Shown: one piece after another, positions 9,024 to 22,761 of the stretch
How the letters are laid out: each line of letters begins with the position of its first letter
How positions within the stretch are numbered: the first letter of the stretch is position 1
Source of the DNA: Dokdonella koreensis DS-123
Lineage (GTDB): Bacteria > Pseudomonadota > Gammaproteobacteria > Xanthomonadales > Rhodanobacteraceae
Assembly: GCF_001632775.1 (NCBI RefSeq)
Contig: NZ_CP015249.1
Coordinates: forward strand, 3,018,686-3,082,685
DNA: 64,000 nt
Reading direction: 5' to 3'
Made by a program: the position numbers and the translations under genes
Notes under the pieces: generated by a model
What the model was told of the DNA's origin: nothing
What the model saw: only the letters and a program-made list of their open reading frames with translations
Database searches by the model: none

Positions 9024-9099
9024 TGGTGCTCACGAATGGAATCGAACCATCGACCTCCTCCTTACCAAGGAGGTGCTCTACCGACTGAGCTACGTGAGC
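9024..9099 (-). tRNA. tRNA-Thr (anticodon GGT)
   Basis: A 76-nt cloverleaf with acceptor GCTCACG/CGTGAGC, D arm TAGCTCAGTCGGTAGAGCA, anticodon GGT in the loop CTTGGTAA, T loop GGTTCGATTCC and an encoded CCA. It is the last tRNA before tuf, equivalent to E. coli thrT. Confidence 0.97.
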
Positions 9100-9163
9100 A
9101 CACTGAAAAAGGTGTGCAGCTTTGCTTCTAGGGAAACGTGTCCGGACGGGCGGTGGACGTCAA

Positions 9164-9237
<74 letters not shown>

Positions 9238-9346
9238 ACGGGACCTAAACACACTTCCAGTTGCATTCTCGTCTTGCTGTCCGGACCCGCTGCCGAAGCA
9301 GCCGGACCGTCCTCTCCAGCACCCCGCGCTTGAACAGCAGCCGGAC

Positions 9347-9366
9347 GCTGGTGGAGGGAGGTGGAT
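9347..9366 (-). repeat. Copy of the tRNA-Tyr 3' end in the tRNA spacer
   Basis: These 20 bp are identical to 9531-9550, the 3' end of tRNA-Tyr with its CCA plus two further bases. Similarity continues with mismatches for about 40 bp downstream on the minus strand: both copies read on through TCCGGC, GCTG and CTGGAGAG. The two copies are 184 bp apart. The layout recalls the roughly 178-bp repeats after E. coli tyrT, each of which contains the last 19 nt of tRNA-Tyr. The rest of the 9238-9532 spacer holds no gene. Confidence 0.7.
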
Positions 9367-9532
9367 GACTCCGGGCATCCTGCCCTCCACCCTCCGGGCC
9401 GTATCGCTACGCGATACGTTCAGGGCCGCTCCTGCGTCCCTGTCGAACCACGACGGCGGTTCTCAATCCACCTCCGCCGCGCTTCGAACTTGCATTCTCT
9501 CCAGAACCCGGCGGCGTGCAGCGGCCGGAAGC

Positions 9533-19000: not shown

Positions 19001-20015
19001 CACCGGCGCGTCGACCGCGCTGTCGCAAGCACGCGTCACCACCGACGCCAATGGCTACGCCGCCGTGCAGGCCGTCGCCAATGCAAGCGCCGGCACCTAC
19101 GCGGTGACGGCGAGCGTCAGCGGCGTGACGCCGGCGCAGTTCGTGCTGACCAACCTCGCGGCCAGCACCGACCTCGCGATCGAGGTGCGCAGCCTGCGCG
19201 GCTACGCGCAGCGCGGTGATCTGCTCGACTACCTGGTGACCGTGCGCAACCTCGGACGCGATGCGGTCGCGAACGGGACCGTCAGCGGCCAGCTGTCGCC
19301 ACAGCTCGATGCCACGTTCGCGAGCTGGCAGTGCCTGGCGGCCGATAGCAGCCACTGCACCGGCAGCGGCACCGGCGACCTGCAGGACGCGAGCCTGGCG
19401 GTGCCGGCCGGCAGCAGCCTGAGCTACCTGGTCAGCGCCCCGGTGCGCTGGAACGCCGACGGCCTCGCCGCGCTCGCCGGCCGGACGACGCACGCCGCCG
19501 ACGCGAACCCCGCCAACGACCAGCACACGGCCGGCGCGCCGATCGTCATCTACCGCGACGGCTTCGAGCACTTCGGCCAGACGGCCGGCCTGCAGCCGGG
19601 ACAGGAGCGGCTGGACATGCAGGCCGCGATCGCGTTCACGCCGGACGCGCCGGCACGGGAACTGGTCGATACCGTGCTCGTCGCGATGCCGGAGGGGACT
19701 TCGGACGCGCTCGAGGCCGCCGCCTTCCGCATCGAACGCCTCAACGGCGCCGGGACGACCTGGCTGCGCATCGTCGCCCGCGACGAGAGCGGCCAGGCTT
19801 TCGCCACCGACTGGACGCGAGCGAACCCGGCGGGCGAAGCGGTACTCGCCCTGGTCGAGCTCGAACCTGGATCGGAAGAAGGCGAGGCGCGCCGGCAGTA
19901 CGTGCTGAACCTGGGCATCGGCTCGGACGTGCTCACCGTGCCGCTGGCGGATCCGGCCGGCAGCTACGTGCTGTGGTCATTCACCCCCGTGCGCCGCGTT
20001 GCCGAAGCGAACTAG
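13056..20015 (+). CDS. Giant secreted S8 (subtilisin-family) serine protease with Asp-box propeller
   Basis: Predicted exported endopeptidase of 2319 residues. A signal peptide spans about residues 1-33, followed by a propeptide-like region to about 190. The S8 domain (about 195-510) has Asp206 (IDTG), His251 (NHGSH), oxyanion Asn354 and Ser448 (GTSMSAPHVAG), so the triad is complete. A fibronectin-like module (about 635-728) precedes about 12 Asp-box (SxDxGxTW) repeats at about 815-1390, which suggest a beta-propeller. Then come BACON-like modules (about 1442 and 1869), a carboxypeptidase-regulatory-like module, an Ig-like Big_1-type module (about 1938) and a DUF11-like module (about 2040). 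VIYRDGFEHF at about 2165 is followed by a 150-residue tail. The start was chosen for its AAGGAGA site. Substrates are unknown. Confidence 0.85.
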   Translation: MSVVPRRGRLNPRPLLMSLAIGFAGSVSVPITAGTPSAVPAPSATQAAPFHIDQALAGRLSGGGKSDMFVYLGRRADLSAAFGMDWNARGHYVQQALQAVAEESQRELRALLDQQGVQYQAFWIDNVIHVRDADLAVLDTLASRAASAGIDRIIGEPDVRLIEPEKTEPVLLPELAAAISNIEHVNAPDVWNLGFTGRGITVANIDTGARYSHDALVHRYRGTIGPDQYDHNYNWWSPYDHSAAPTDPHNHGSHTIGTMVGDGGSDRLIGMAPGAKWMACQGFNPSSTASALFECGQFMLAPWNLAQQNPDPNRRPHVVNNSWTDCNRQVDTWYEGVVDAWIAAGIVPVFSNGNASNCNYSRPPGLNTVGNPARYGKVLSVGSTGTDNGLYAAHSNWGPTDYPTAGLPNYPDHQGFPSIKPNIVAPGVSVLSAGKDSDDHYYLSNGTSMSAPHVAGLVALMWEAAPCLVGDYAGTGTIIMKTARPVPYASGGTPAPGPGNVPNYATGWGEIDALAAVDAAMEECGGFTIAGAPAELHVCAANPASYALELRSHGGFHDPVTLSIASGLPAGVTASFSQNPLVPADPASTSTLGLGNTAGQPSASYRLTVKAQSSGPAFAALERSVDLDLHIDAAALAAPTLSAPANGETNVVVRPNFEWNGVAGETYHVQVATDAAFAAPSIDQTVAATSFRPTSLLATGKTYYWRVRGENTCGGGNWSATGTFSTRFDPVASITPGSLAFTLAADATDSRSLNIANTGSAELVWTAAEAGVSATAPSADAAWQPIGPLGGDVEAIAISPINPDLILLGTAPAVGAGNLYRSIDGGASWTQVISGANIYSIVYAGDGTAYAGTMAGVRKSTDDGVTWSTPNLNIGANRQTFGVAVAPSNSSIVWAAVAAANGVQTKNLLRSTDAGVTWQNVTPTLGATLNGRAIAVHPTNPNTVVALFDGGFGGGQVWVSTNGGASWTNRSAGLPGNPPRSVHFDGTRLLVGGGQAYNNQYFGLYQSLDLGVTWAALHTSTPTPHVEAIAVDPQDSDTIYLATSNSGIHRSRDGGVTWQTGLGGTSRVGMMDLALVPGSPGEILAGAMSQGLFRSLDGGDSFAAYGTGIAEARLYSVTTNPLNPQEIAVAFQAANAGGIYSTADGGAHWIVESAPPTRYVTVRFAPDGTLYGISTGPTTIAREAVYRRETDGTWTHLGPNQGANFLVDLEAIAFGWNDPNLIVVGGKDNGVAGSEATIWRSTDRGQTWTKVHEATAGYKVTAIEIIQDGTDLNMVATAGSASLGGVLRSTDGGASWQPSSAGIEPVGYWATARMCTHPATPQRVFAVKGNPSALYRSDDGGANWQATGSTFPVLVVSLACDPVDENVIYAGQSSTLAGTIRVLRSGDAGASFERFDSGIPVAGPVPQGFAFKGTSSLLAATNGGGTFETSLGGEARACMSPHDVPWLTLGSTGGTVAPGAGSVVTVGADANSLALGQYRAQLCFSTNDPNAELIRVPVQLTVADSSAGTLAGNVSALGYCGRQTTAAANAQVTITGQHNSFTMTTDSAGRFSREISLDESPLSVLVRKAGHVDVSLDDIVLASTQTTTVDLQVKLDAPCLETAPSAFDVALEAGGNTTQTFTLHNTDGAGTLDWNARGATPTASPAPEVLAPAGGSGAGGFELAGHFGQPLPGLATIGTAGQLDCNNAPGLIRHDDGSVESGYGADPSLVQRITMVDYFVPRTYPTMLDAACIVFVSIGPSSLDFDLVVYDDDGPGGSPGTELGSLALSATDLPIPPLPPALPWKSFDLSSLNLRIFSGGVYIGVRWFATDPPVTLGADTSAGQPANVGHGYKKFDQGAWESLVAAWPAYRSLFIRAATHDVSGCEAASSVSWLTLTPSSGSVAPGASTDVAVRIDSSGLATGEHHASLCLDSNDPEQPRVIVPVRLTVEAGANDPATLSALGGSGQSAALNAAFPVPLSVQVLNSQGQPLAGANVDFTAPATGASTALSQARVTTDANGYAAVQAVANASAGTYAVTASVSGVTPAQFVLTNLAASTDLAIEVRSLRGYAQRGDLLDYLVTVRNLGRDAVANGTVSGQLSPQLDATFASWQCLAADSSHCTGSGTGDLQDASLAVPAGSSLSYLVSAPVRWNADGLAALAGRTTHAADANPANDQHTAGAPIVIYRDGFEHFGQTAGLQPGQERLDMQAAIAFTPDAPARELVDTVLVAMPEGTSDALEAAAFRIERLNGAGTTWLRIVARDESGQAFATDWTRANPAGEAVLALVELEPGSEEGEARRQYVLNLGIGSDVLTVPLADPAGSYVLWSFTPVRRVAEAN

Positions 20016-20039
20016 ACCGGCAAGGCCGCGTGACTTGCG

Positions 20040-20071
20040 CCCCCCATCCTTGTGATGGGGGGTTTTTTTTT
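20040..20071 (+). terminator. Rho-independent terminator of the subtilase gene
   Basis: A perfect 9-bp stem CCCCCCATC/GATGGGGGG with a 5-nt loop is followed directly by nine T residues (20063-20071). It lies 24 bp after the subtilase stop and is the clearest intrinsic terminator in the window. Confidence 0.95.
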
Positions 20072-20191
20072 GGTTCTTCGCCCCTTCGCGGGAATCAATC
20101 AGCTGCCGCTTCCGTCGCAACCACTGCTGCTCTCGCTCTCGCTGTTGCTGTCGCTGTTGCCGTTGCCGTGCTCTCGCTCTTGCTGTTGGCG

Positions 20192-20469
20192 CCTAAAGCG
20201 AACCGAGCATCGCAGGTCGGCCAGGCCGAAGAGCTGCCCCGTGTCTGAGCGAAGCGAGTTGGGGCAGCGTGCCTGGCCGACCGAGAAGCGCAGGGGACCG
20301 GCGCGGCGCAGCCGTGCCGGCTCGCGCCGGCGCAGGCGGTTTTGGTTACTTCTGCCAAGACAAAGAATTTCCTGGAGAAATTCTTGACGTCGCGCAGCGA
20401 CGGCCCGAAGGGCGGCCGCCAGGGATGGCGGGCCGCAAAAGTGACCCGCGCGCGCAGCGTGCGGAAGCT
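20192..20469 (+). repeat. Structured extragenic repeat, copy A
   Basis: About 278 nt, related to copy B at 20542-20793 on the other strand. Predicted stems: P1 20215-20226 with 20271-20282 (12 bp, perfect), P2 20234-20240 with 20261-20267 (7 bp), a 9-bp hairpin 20363-20385, GTCGC/GCGAC at about 20388-20400, then further GC hairpins. The P2 loop sequence (GTGTCTGAGCGAAGCGAGTT) is identical in both copies. A low-complexity stretch rich in CTGTTGC and CTCTCG units precedes it (about 20120-20190). There is no credible coding frame. The function is unknown. Confidence 0.8.
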
Positions 20470-20541
20470 GCTGCTCTGATCTTCTGCCGTGGTTATCTGG
20501 TGAGGATTGCTGGCACAGAAAAGAACAACAGCAACATCAAG

Positions 20542-20793
20542 AGCTTTCGTCCGCTGCGCGGCCGAGTCCCTTTTGCGGCAGCCATCCCTGGCCGCCGCCC
20601 TCCGGGCCATCGCTGACGCGATGTCAAAAATGTCTCCCGGACATTTTTTGACGGGCCAAAAGGAACCAAAAGCCCTCTCGCCCGGCGTCCCCTGCGCTTC
20701 TCGGACGACCAGGCACGGCGCCCCAACTCGCTTCGCTCAGACACGGGGCGCCTCTGCGGCCTCCTCGCCCTGCGATGCTCGGCTTGCTTTAGG
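20542..20793 (-). repeat. Structured extragenic repeat, copy B (inverted)
   Basis: About 252 nt in opposite orientation to copy A, with 72 bp between them. Equivalent stems are P1 20759-20770 with 20703-20714 (10 of 12 pairs, including one G-U), P2 20745-20751 with 20718-20724 (7 bp), the 9-bp hairpin 20626-20648, and ATCGC/GCGAT. Several pairs differ from copy A on both sides of the stem, so pairing is kept while sequence changes. A simple-sequence stretch of CCAAAG-type units (about 20797-20835) flanks its 5' end, mirroring copy A. Confidence 0.8.
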
Positions 20794-21032
20794 GCGAAAA
20801 AGCCAAGAGCCAAAGCCAAAGCAGGAGCAAGGCCAAATGTCCCCGCACATGGGCGAAGAACTTTTCTGGGAGGGCTGCCTATGCGATCCGTCCGGGATCG
20901 CCACCGTCGGGATAGGTCGCCGCGAATGTGCGACGCATTCGGATCAGTGACTCGCGGCCATCCATGGCCGCAGCTTTCGTCGGGATAACGAGCAGGCACC
21001 CGCCCGGGCACGCGGTCGCGCGCGACGAGGGC
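20794..21032. other. Gene-free region next to ychF with one palindrome
   Basis: No gene is visible. It contains the simple-sequence flank of repeat copy B and, at 20954-20971, an 8-bp palindrome (GCGGCCAT/ATGGCCGC with 2 bases between). The palindrome is about 60 bp beyond the ychF stop and lacks a U-tract, so I do not call it a terminator. Confidence 0.4.
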
Positions 21033-22124
21033 TCAGACGTTGAAGCGGAAATGCAGGATGTCGCCTTCTTTTACGAGGTAGTCCTTGCCTTCCAGGCGCA
21101 GCCGGCCCACCTCCTTGGCCCCCGCCTCGCCGCGGTACTTGATGTAGTCGTCGTAGGCGATGGTTTCGGCGCGGATGAAGCCGCGCTCGAAATCGGTATG
21201 GATGACGCCGGCGGCCTGCGGCGCCGTCGCCCCCTTGCGGACCGTCCAGGCGCGCACTTCCTTCTCGCCGGCGGTGAAGTAGGTCTGCAGGCCCAGCAGG
21301 CGATAGCCGGCACGGATGACGCGATTGAGGCCCGGCTCGTCCAGGCCCATGTCGGCCAGGAACGTGTCGCGATCGGCGTCGTCGAGCTGCGAGAGCTCCT
21401 CCTCGATCGCCGCGCAGACCGGCACGACCTCGGCACCCTCGCCTTGCGCGCGCTGGCGCACGGCCTCCAGGTGCGGGTTGTCGACGAAGCCGTCTTCCTT
21501 GACGTTGGCGATGTACATCAGCGGCTTGAGCGTCAGCAGGAACAGGTCGCGGACCAGCGCCTTCTCCTCCTCGTCCAGCCCGGCGGCGCGAGCTGGCCGC
21601 CCTTCGTTGAGCGCCTCGGCCAGCTTGCGCAGCACCGGACGGCGGGCCAGCGCATCCTTGTCATTGGCCTTGGCCGCGCGCTCGACCCGGTTGAGCGCCT
21701 TCTCGACCGATTCGAGATCGGCCAGCGCCAGTTCGGTGTCGATGGTCTCGATGTCCGAGATCGGATCGATCCGGCCGGCGACGTGGACGATGTCCGGATG
21801 CTCGAAGCAGCGCACCACGTGGGCGATCGCATCCACCTCGCGGATGTGCGCCAGGAACTTGTTGCCGAGCCCTTCGCCCTTGGAGGCGCCGGCGACCAGG
21901 CCGGCGATGTCGACGAACTCGATCGAGGTCGGGATGACCTTCAACGGCCTGGCGATGCCGGCGATCGCGACCAGCCGCGGATCGGGCACCGGCACCACGC
22001 CGACGTTGGGATCGATCGTGCAGAACGGGAAATTGGCCGCCGCGATGCCGGCCTTGGTCAAGGCATTGAACAGCGTGGACTTGCCCACGTTGGGCAGGCC
22101 GACGATGCCGCATTTGATACCCAT
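21033..22124 (-). CDS. ychF: Redox-regulated ATPase YchF (OBG/TRAFAC family)
   Basis: Ribosome-associated P-loop protein of the OBG family that hydrolyses ATP rather than GTP and is linked to translation and oxidative-stress responses. With the start [17 protein letters not shown] it has 363 residues, the length I recall for E. coli YchF. P-loop GLPNVGKST is at about residues 8-16 and G3 is [18 protein letters not shown] replaces the GTP-specific NKxD, which explains ATP preference. The C-terminal TGS domain ends [13 protein letters not shown] lies 6 nt upstream of the ATG. It follows pth by 46 bp, as in Pseudomonas. Confidence 0.97.
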
Positions 22125-22170
22125 CTGGAACTCCGCAATGGTGGATTCGGACCGGCACCCGCCGGCCTGG

Positions 22171-22761
22171 CTATGCGCCGGCCGCGCGCGGCGTATGCAG
22201 GGACTGCATGGCCTTCTCGAACTCGCCGCGGACGGCGAGCGGAAGCACGTCGAACGCCTCGCCGATGGCGGCAAGGATGGCATTCTCGTCGGCCACCGAC
22301 GGCCGGCCGAGCACCCAGGGCGTCACCTTGTCGCGATGGCCGGGATGGCCGATCCCGAGCCGCAGCCGATGGAAGCGGCCGTGCCCGAGGTGGGCGAAGA
22401 TGTCACGCAGGCCGTTCTGGCCGCCGTGGCCGCCGTCGAACTTCAACCGCACCGCGCCGGGAGGAAGATCCAGGTCGTCGTGGACGACGAGCATCTCCTC
22501 CGGCTCGATCTTCCAGTAGCGCAGCGCCGCCGCGACGGCGACGCCGCTCTTGTTCATGTAGGTGGTCGGCTTCTGCAGCCAGACCGTGCCGCCCTCGACG
22601 GCCAGCTTGGCCGTCTCGGCGCTCAGCTTCGTCTCGAAGCCGAAACGGGCGCCCTCGCGCTGGGCGAGGGCATCGGCGAACCAGAACCCGGCGTTGTGCC
22701 GGGTCCTGAGATGCTCGGCCCCGGGATTCCCGAGGCCGACGATGAGCCGCAGGCCGGCCAT
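22171..22761 (-). CDS. pth: Peptidyl-tRNA hydrolase
   Basis: Releases tRNA from peptidyl-tRNAs that drop off the ribosome. It has 196 residues. The N-terminus [11 protein letters not shown] is the family signature. Catalytic His22 sits in RHNAGFW, with Asn70 (TYMNKSG), Asp95 (HDDLDLPPG) and Asn116 (GGQNGLRDI) in the expected places. It starts 24 bp after the rplY stop without an obvious ribosome binding site, suggesting translational coupling. Confidence 0.98.

Follow-up and report, generated by a model that had tools for sequence, protein, structure and literature searches.

Many bacteria change lifestyle under the control of the protein CsrA/RsmA. In the accessible parts of the reports cited here, the Rsm motif is given as CANGGANG, with A/U-CANGGANG-U/A for the RsmE consensus (PMC6849547), RsmU of Xanthomonas is described as an RsmA-binding sRNA that is processed from a 3' UTR and whose RsmA binding was not abolished when all four predicted GGA motifs were changed (PMC7694677), and RrA/B/F of Escherichia coli are produced by first-terminator read-through and interact with CsrA (PMC8144298). 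Among repeats, the nearest kind to the element studied here is the TIR/TIRYT families, as far as the available text describes them (PMC3733652). No description of this repeat was recognised in the literature that we searched, which mostly leaves out subscription journals, and it may still be published.

The window, meaning the whole stretch of DNA analysed, comprises 64,000 nucleotides of the Dokdonella koreensis DS-123 genome, in which the original prediction placed an inverted pair of structured copies at 20192-20793. The sequence agrees with its description: two gene-free copies face each other and share an identical 20-nt loop, P2 reads CTGCCCC/GGGGCAG in copy A and GCGCCCC/GGGGCGC in copy B, the description also holds for the 9-bp hairpin and for the third stem, and P1 pairs at 12 of 12 positions in A and 10 of 12 in B. 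These limits are correct for the core, but the full element, with its hexamer arrays and outer inverted repeats, occupies about 20072-20861, and copies A and B are the halves of this single gene-free element (Table 1). Its arms (20192-20298 and 20687-20793, 107 nt) are 88% complementary, and the T tract on its left is mirrored by TTTT past its right end. Half A folds far better than its shuffles (z -4.75), and half B shows a weaker signal (z -1.97, with 7 of 200 shuffles equally good). Each unit displays GGA in two hairpin loops, and folding of the two cassettes reproduces the drawn structure (z -3.99 and -4.45). To the right of the element, before the 3' end of a ychF-like gene (21033-22283, minus strand) is reached, comes the separate hairpin, which is sense to that gene.

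Table 1. Features of the element and its borders in the window.
Feature	Position	Strand	Remarks
Terminator-like hairpin and T tract	20039..20071	+	3' of a large protease gene; the element starts directly past the T tract
Left outer inverted repeat	20072..20096	+	GGTTCTTCGCCC...GGGAATC; from inverted-repeat and flank comparison of copies
Left hexamer array	20122..20187	+	GCTNTT-like, from outer repeat to core; differs among copies; limits by eye
Unit A (sense on +)	20192..20480	+	P1/P2 domain, then P3 stem around the GGA cassette
P1/P2 of unit A	20215..20282	+	P1 arms 20215-20226 / 20271-20282; P2 arms 20234-20240 / 20261-20267
Constant loop of unit A P1/P2	20241-20260	+	Contains GCGNAGC
P3 of unit A	20344..20446	+	GGTTACTTCTG (20344-20354) pairs with CAAAAGTGACC (20436-20446); loop = cassette
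GGA cassette, unit A	20363..20434	+	H1 20363-20385, loop CTGGA 20372-20376; H2 20389-20401; H3 20403-20413
H4 of unit A cassette	20414-20434	+	CAGGGATG at 20420-20427
Unit B (sense on -)	20506..20793	-	Inverted partner of unit A
P1/P2 domain, unit B	20690..20781	-	P2 arms 20745-20751 / 20718-20724; loop 20725-20744
GGA cassette, unit B	20576..20648	-	H1 20626-20648, loop CGGGA; H4 with CAGGGATG 20583-20590
Right hexamer array	20800..20836	-	GCCAAA-like on +; limits by eye
Right outer inverted repeat	20851..20861	-	GGGCGAAGAAC, then TTTT 20862-20865
Separate hairpin	20954..20971	-	GCGGCCATGGATGGCCGC (CANGGANG type); exact pattern match G000:C1:3039641-3039654:-

Simple consensus scans of 19950-21100 found no promoter-like site, and the sole terminator match was the hairpin of the upstream gene, with none inside the element. 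A scan of the window with a simple GacA-box pattern gave no match near the element; an sRNA transcribed from its own promoter was rejected on these scans. None of the Rfam covariance models reached its gathering score on the element, and a known Rfam family was rejected because sX7 and RsmW matched far below their cut-offs (RsmW on unit B: 29.3 bits against 52; Rfam clan CL00106). Elsewhere in the window, two tRNA genes at 9027-9488 (minus strand) adjoin an RtT RNA match of 46.8 bits (cut-off 45).

The element is dispersed through its genome. With 20150-20800 as the BLAST query, at least 85 pieces at no fewer than 27 loci, grouped by hand, were found in the single contig of 4,446,619 bases, both counts being lower bounds, as scoring covered 40 of the 275 candidates. 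The family is not limited to the two copies of the window. These pieces, together with structural covariation in other families, contradict the view that the region is a decayed coding sequence or a chance likeness of two GC-rich palindromes, which mechanical open reading frames crossing the region might suggest and to which we assign a negligible probability. Nine further near-full copies are 89-95% identical. In 18 copies aligned with their flanks, the parts follow in the order GGTTCTTCGCCC outer repeat, GCTNTT array, inner end GCGCCTAAAGCGAGCCGAGCATCGCAGG, P1/P2, CCGAGAAGCGCAGGGGAC, GC-rich hairpin and P3 stem, and then the mirror image. Within this set the A half lacks the cassette in L027, L029, L031, L033 and L034, and the B half lacks it in L028, L031 and L033; in such halves P3 is a plain hairpin whose junction reads CAAA, and L026, L032 and L034 show bigger losses or an interruption. 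Extra sequence, probably insertion sequences, splits the copies L025, L030, L034 and L035 and measures about 1.26-1.28 kb in all of these but L034. It was also seen that 10 of the 27 loci lie within 250 kb outside the window (G000:C1, 1.23-1.48 Mb), which was equalled by 2 of 20000 random placements. Plasmid and phage collections, which may omit records near the genome, gave no match to the element, and an origin from either was rejected on this absence.

Pairing in the P1/P2 domain (about 93 nt, loop TGTYTGAGCGNAGCGAGTT) is retained well beyond the window. Across 39 sequences (31 from this genome and 8 from genome G056) read at fixed anchors, 700 of 741 cells (94.5%) are paired, a figure lowered by three G056 rows whose P2 is misread by one base, compared with 37-61% when the register is slid by up to 4 bases. 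The P1/P2 model R3 matched in 23 of 233 family genomes and 47 of 250 order genomes, with at most 17-18 candidates scored per genome, so that copy numbers are lower bounds. When 45 distinct sequences of relatives, taken from 38 loci, were fitted to the model, 96.4% of cells were paired against 37-52% in slid controls, and double changes were present at 18 of the 19 pairs. The cassette gave a similar picture: in 91 distinct rows, also fitted to their model, 93.2% of cells are paired (slid controls 37-54%) and double changes occur at 21 of 25 pairs. Selection on RNA or single-stranded DNA structure, which had been proposed from the two window copies, is thus demonstrated, the covariation persisting in the larger alignments.

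The P1/P2 loop occurs in alternative states. Among the 45 units, GCGNAGC fills it in 23 cases, a CANGGANG hairpin (for example GCAC-AGGGAT-GTGC) in 20 and other content in 2, and because R3 contains no GGA-loop hairpin, the CANGGANG hairpins are no artefact of the search. Both states are found within the window's genus, the hairpin in G003 and G004 (L181, L183) and GCGAAGC in G000. Judged by eye, the P3 of these P1/P2 relatives mostly lacks a cassette of the window type, so the cassette resembles a stem-loop insertion or a deletable module. In one pair of family f2 (L196), GGCGCACATGGATGTGCGCC lies antisense in the P3 loops of both units, a GGA hairpin captured on the other strand.

The cassette itself, 73 nt with four hairpins (H1-H4), occupies the P3 loop. 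Its covariance model R1 matched in 113 of the 233 genomes searched in the family and in 86 of the 250 searched in the order, and an exact pattern scan located cassettes in Rhodanobacter, Luteimonas, Rudaea and Alloalcanivorax, with four copies 76 bases apart at one Luteimonas locus. The P1/P2 model found no match in 77 cassette loci of relatives, which indicates that the cassettes of relatives stand alone. For an unbiased reading of the loops, their letters were masked as N in model R2, which matched in 27 of 233 family genomes (94 places in 68 loci, 91 distinct); excluding seven antisense matches and duplicates left 85 distinct forward matches. In this set GGA is present in the H1 loop of 69, the H4 loop of 70 and both loops of 59, and in 55 the H4 loop conforms fully to CANGGANG; every one of the four letters occurs at its first N, and T, C or G at its second. 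Six-base H4 loops closed by C-G (n = 68) read A (63), N (A 26, T 25, G 11, C 6), G (63), G (63), A (63) and then T 55, C 7, G 5, A 1, while five-base H1 loops (n = 78) read C (72), N (T 26, G 25, C 16, A 11), G (74), G (73) and A (70). The loop consensus is therefore C-N-GGA and A-N-GGA-T with N free, and at the level of sequence these loops match the Rsm-binding motif as given in the accessible text (PMC6849547). In one subfamily (L145, L147, L149, L152, L154 and L157) the same loops sit on unrelated stems. GGA hairpins on the opposite strand (e.g. GCGGCCAAGGATGGCCGC) come after the Rhodanobacter cassettes at L044, L080, L084, L094 and L095, giving a mixed-strand repeat. Genome G038 carries five GGCCATGGATGGCC hairpins at an exact spacing of 127 bases (C1:62690-63211), and has 112 matches in all against 1 control match.

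G-U pairs exceed A-C mismatches by 25:2 in the cassette and 35:7 in P1/P2 (cells, not events, from alignments that were not fitted to a structure), suggesting that a single strand folds, more probably as RNA, and that it is the one reading P1-P2-P3, which the original prediction used. This excess weighs against a transposable hairpin element whose folds would act as single-stranded DNA in its own mobilisation and whose GGA and GCGNAGC loops would be recognised by a transposase, unrelated to CsrA. Several features of the element do fit that explanation: it has outer inverted repeats, its outer ends frequently adjoin A or T tracts, the same A/T homopolymer, considered as a candidate target-site duplication, stands on both sides at 6 of the 12 copies with both ends called (a loose match, some calls looking spurious), and its units occur as inverted pairs in both arrangements. 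GCGNAGC, present with a free N in 23 of the 45 units, is an unusually stable DNA mini-hairpin, and a DNA-level role of this loop in mobility is possible. Nevertheless, the GGA loops vary and stay constant at the positions where the Rsm motif does, as far as its published account was accessible (PMC6849547), and GGA hairpins accompany 0 of 17 units in csrA-less genomes, though the repeat is common there. The own genome contains two Y1 (IS200/IS605-type) transposase genes (L207, L208; G000:C1:1426018-1428470) with GGGGTCAG-type flanking repeats, a TIRYT-like arrangement, and the GGGGWSAS motif of the TIR/TIRYT families, in the available part of their description (PMC3733652), fits these GGGGTCAG ends and not the element. 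Mobilisation by these two genes was rejected, as they carry those other ends and their best similarity to the element does not go below E 0.03, which also speaks against the single-stranded DNA explanation; we regard the latter as rather unlikely. Among the identities first proposed, a structured RNA and a transposable hairpin element both keep their standing, since no Rfam family reaches threshold and the element is MITE-like; a REP-like family is unsupported, because the unit is much bigger than a REP, lacks a constant GTAG/CGTC tag and differs from the end repeats borne by the Y1 genes.

The cassette is associated with csrA. The own genome has one CsrA with the stretch VHREEIYQRI, which we take to be the usual RNA-binding stretch of CsrA. 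csrA was detected in 194 of 250 order genomes, and cassette matches occur in 79 of these 194 versus 7 of the 56 genomes lacking it (Fisher p 5e-5), or 64 of 167 versus 2 of 28 among genomes at least 90% complete; the csrA-less set contains many incomplete genomes and consists largely of two genera of family f10, so these tests are phylogenetically non-independent and confounded. Seven csrA-less genomes have a cassette match, and the cassette-rich genome G087 (86% complete) shows no csrA. The pattern GGCCANGGANGGCC gave 1510 matches versus 329 for its reversed control in csrA-bearing genomes and 147 versus 74 in the others, the control not being neutral for coding DNA, and all 17 genomes with at least 20 matches carry csrA. 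In contrast, the P1/P2 repeat (R3) has the opposite bias, with matches in 25 of 194 genomes with csrA versus 22 of 56 without.

A sense-strand GGA hairpin follows within 300 bases of the unit in 19 of 21 cases in family f1, 17 of 31 in the own genome, 1 of 30 in f2 and 0 of 17 in f10, where a crude shuffle expectation is below 0.01 per unit. An opposite-strand hairpin follows in 1 of 21, 18 of 31, 2 of 30 and 0 of 17, respectively; in the own genome these opposite-strand hairpins come from the facing half, whose cassette they form. csrA is present in f2, absent from f10, and present in 6 of the 6 genomes checked among the 19 of f1. Because f2 keeps both csrA and the repeat, yet 29 of its 30 units have no hairpin, CsrA binding is unlikely to have been the founding function of the P1/P2 unit.

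By our own codon-usage gene caller, the genes on either side of the 19 own copies are convergent at 11, tandem at 7 and divergent at 1. P1/P2 units of f1 include 2 divergent placements among 14 classifiable, and lone cassettes include none among 73 classifiable (n = 87, of which 8 called inside genes and 6 left as queries may be gene-caller errors). An A tract lies within 5 nt of the right end in 52 of the 87 lone cassettes, with a hairpin next in 32 of these. Such placements favour a role between convergent genes as a terminator for both directions or as a stabiliser of mRNA 3' ends, in which pairing would be kept for hairpin strength only; that role leaves the loop letters kept around the free N positions unexplained, and a terminator-like hairpin already stands upstream of the window element with none found inside it, and we consider it improbable. 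Between tandem genes, lone cassettes are antisense to both genes in 33 cases and sense in 15 (copies not independent), and this antisense excess runs counter to a sense 3'-UTR role, from which the reverse would be expected. Also weighing against the reading favoured below is the RsmA binding that RsmU keeps when all four of its predicted GGA motifs are changed (PMC7694677).

The reading that we favour, with moderate confidence, is a non-autonomous MITE-like element near gene 3' ends, whose halves are structured units with CsrA/RsmA-type GGA loops that bind RsmA/CsrA. In this reading the element sits beside gene 3' ends, often at the T/A tract of a terminator, and each half forms a structured unit selected on the P1-P2-P3 strand, its P3-loop cassette (in related genera, a P2-loop hairpin) presenting GGA in loops of CsrA/RsmA type. 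Read-through transcripts of neighbouring genes would carry the units in sense, for which RsmU and RrA/B/F offer precedents, and with the order A> <B between convergent genes, read-through from either gene would meet a sense unit first. Sense units would then most likely bind RsmA/CsrA dimers through H1 and H4, leading to titration by a distributed decoy or to docking on mRNA 3' ends, so that the repeats may be mobile decoys or docking sites for CsrA/RsmA, to judge from their loop sequences. A broader and more tentative proposal, which we would not yet call probable, is that a mobile family repeatedly captured CsrA/RsmA-binding hairpins (in the P3 loop here, in the P2 loop in related genera, and as lone cassettes and tandem arrays elsewhere), that such transposon-borne RNA sites tune a global regulator genome-wide, and that their copy number re-sets the Csr system. 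If the favoured reading is true, dispersed repeats skipped by annotation would be a reservoir of CsrA/RsmA binding sites, predicted to compete with mRNAs for CsrA, and selfish repeats would be linked to global post-transcriptional control. Even without the CsrA part, an order-wide covarying RNA-like family with no Rfam match here deserves curation.

Compared with known systems, the element resembles the CsrA-sequestering sRNAs of the CsrB/RsmX/Y/Z type in having several hairpins with GGA loops that match CANGGANG, but differs from them in its many scattered copies, inverted pairs and common P1/P2 scaffold, with no GacA box or promoter-like site found and no single dedicated gene. Like RsmU and RrA/B/F it follows a gene or terminator (PMC7694677, PMC8144298), whereas RsmU comes from one locus and RrA/B/F from three rRNA operons, and the accessible text of these reports describes no scattered repeat. 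With REP/REPIN and the TIR families that have RAYT/TIRYT, it shares an intergenic, structured nature and frequent inverted pairs near gene ends; the TIR families include the self-complementary family '1152' of Stenotrophomonas maltophilia (PMC3733652). Unlike REPs, which are palindromes of 20-40 nt with a GTAG/CGTC tag, its units are about 290 nt long with no constant tag (among 94 cassette matches, GTAG lies near the ends of 7 and CGTC of 21). MITEs are also short (less than about 1 kb), gene-free and numerous, with terminal inverted repeats and flanking A/T tracts; they differ in that here a conserved fold makes up most of the element length, and a search of the own genome with the 25-base outer end found 6 places and no parental transposon. 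Taken together, these comparisons place the presumably mobile element as a MITE-like repeat family that carries RNA modules apparently of the CsrA type.
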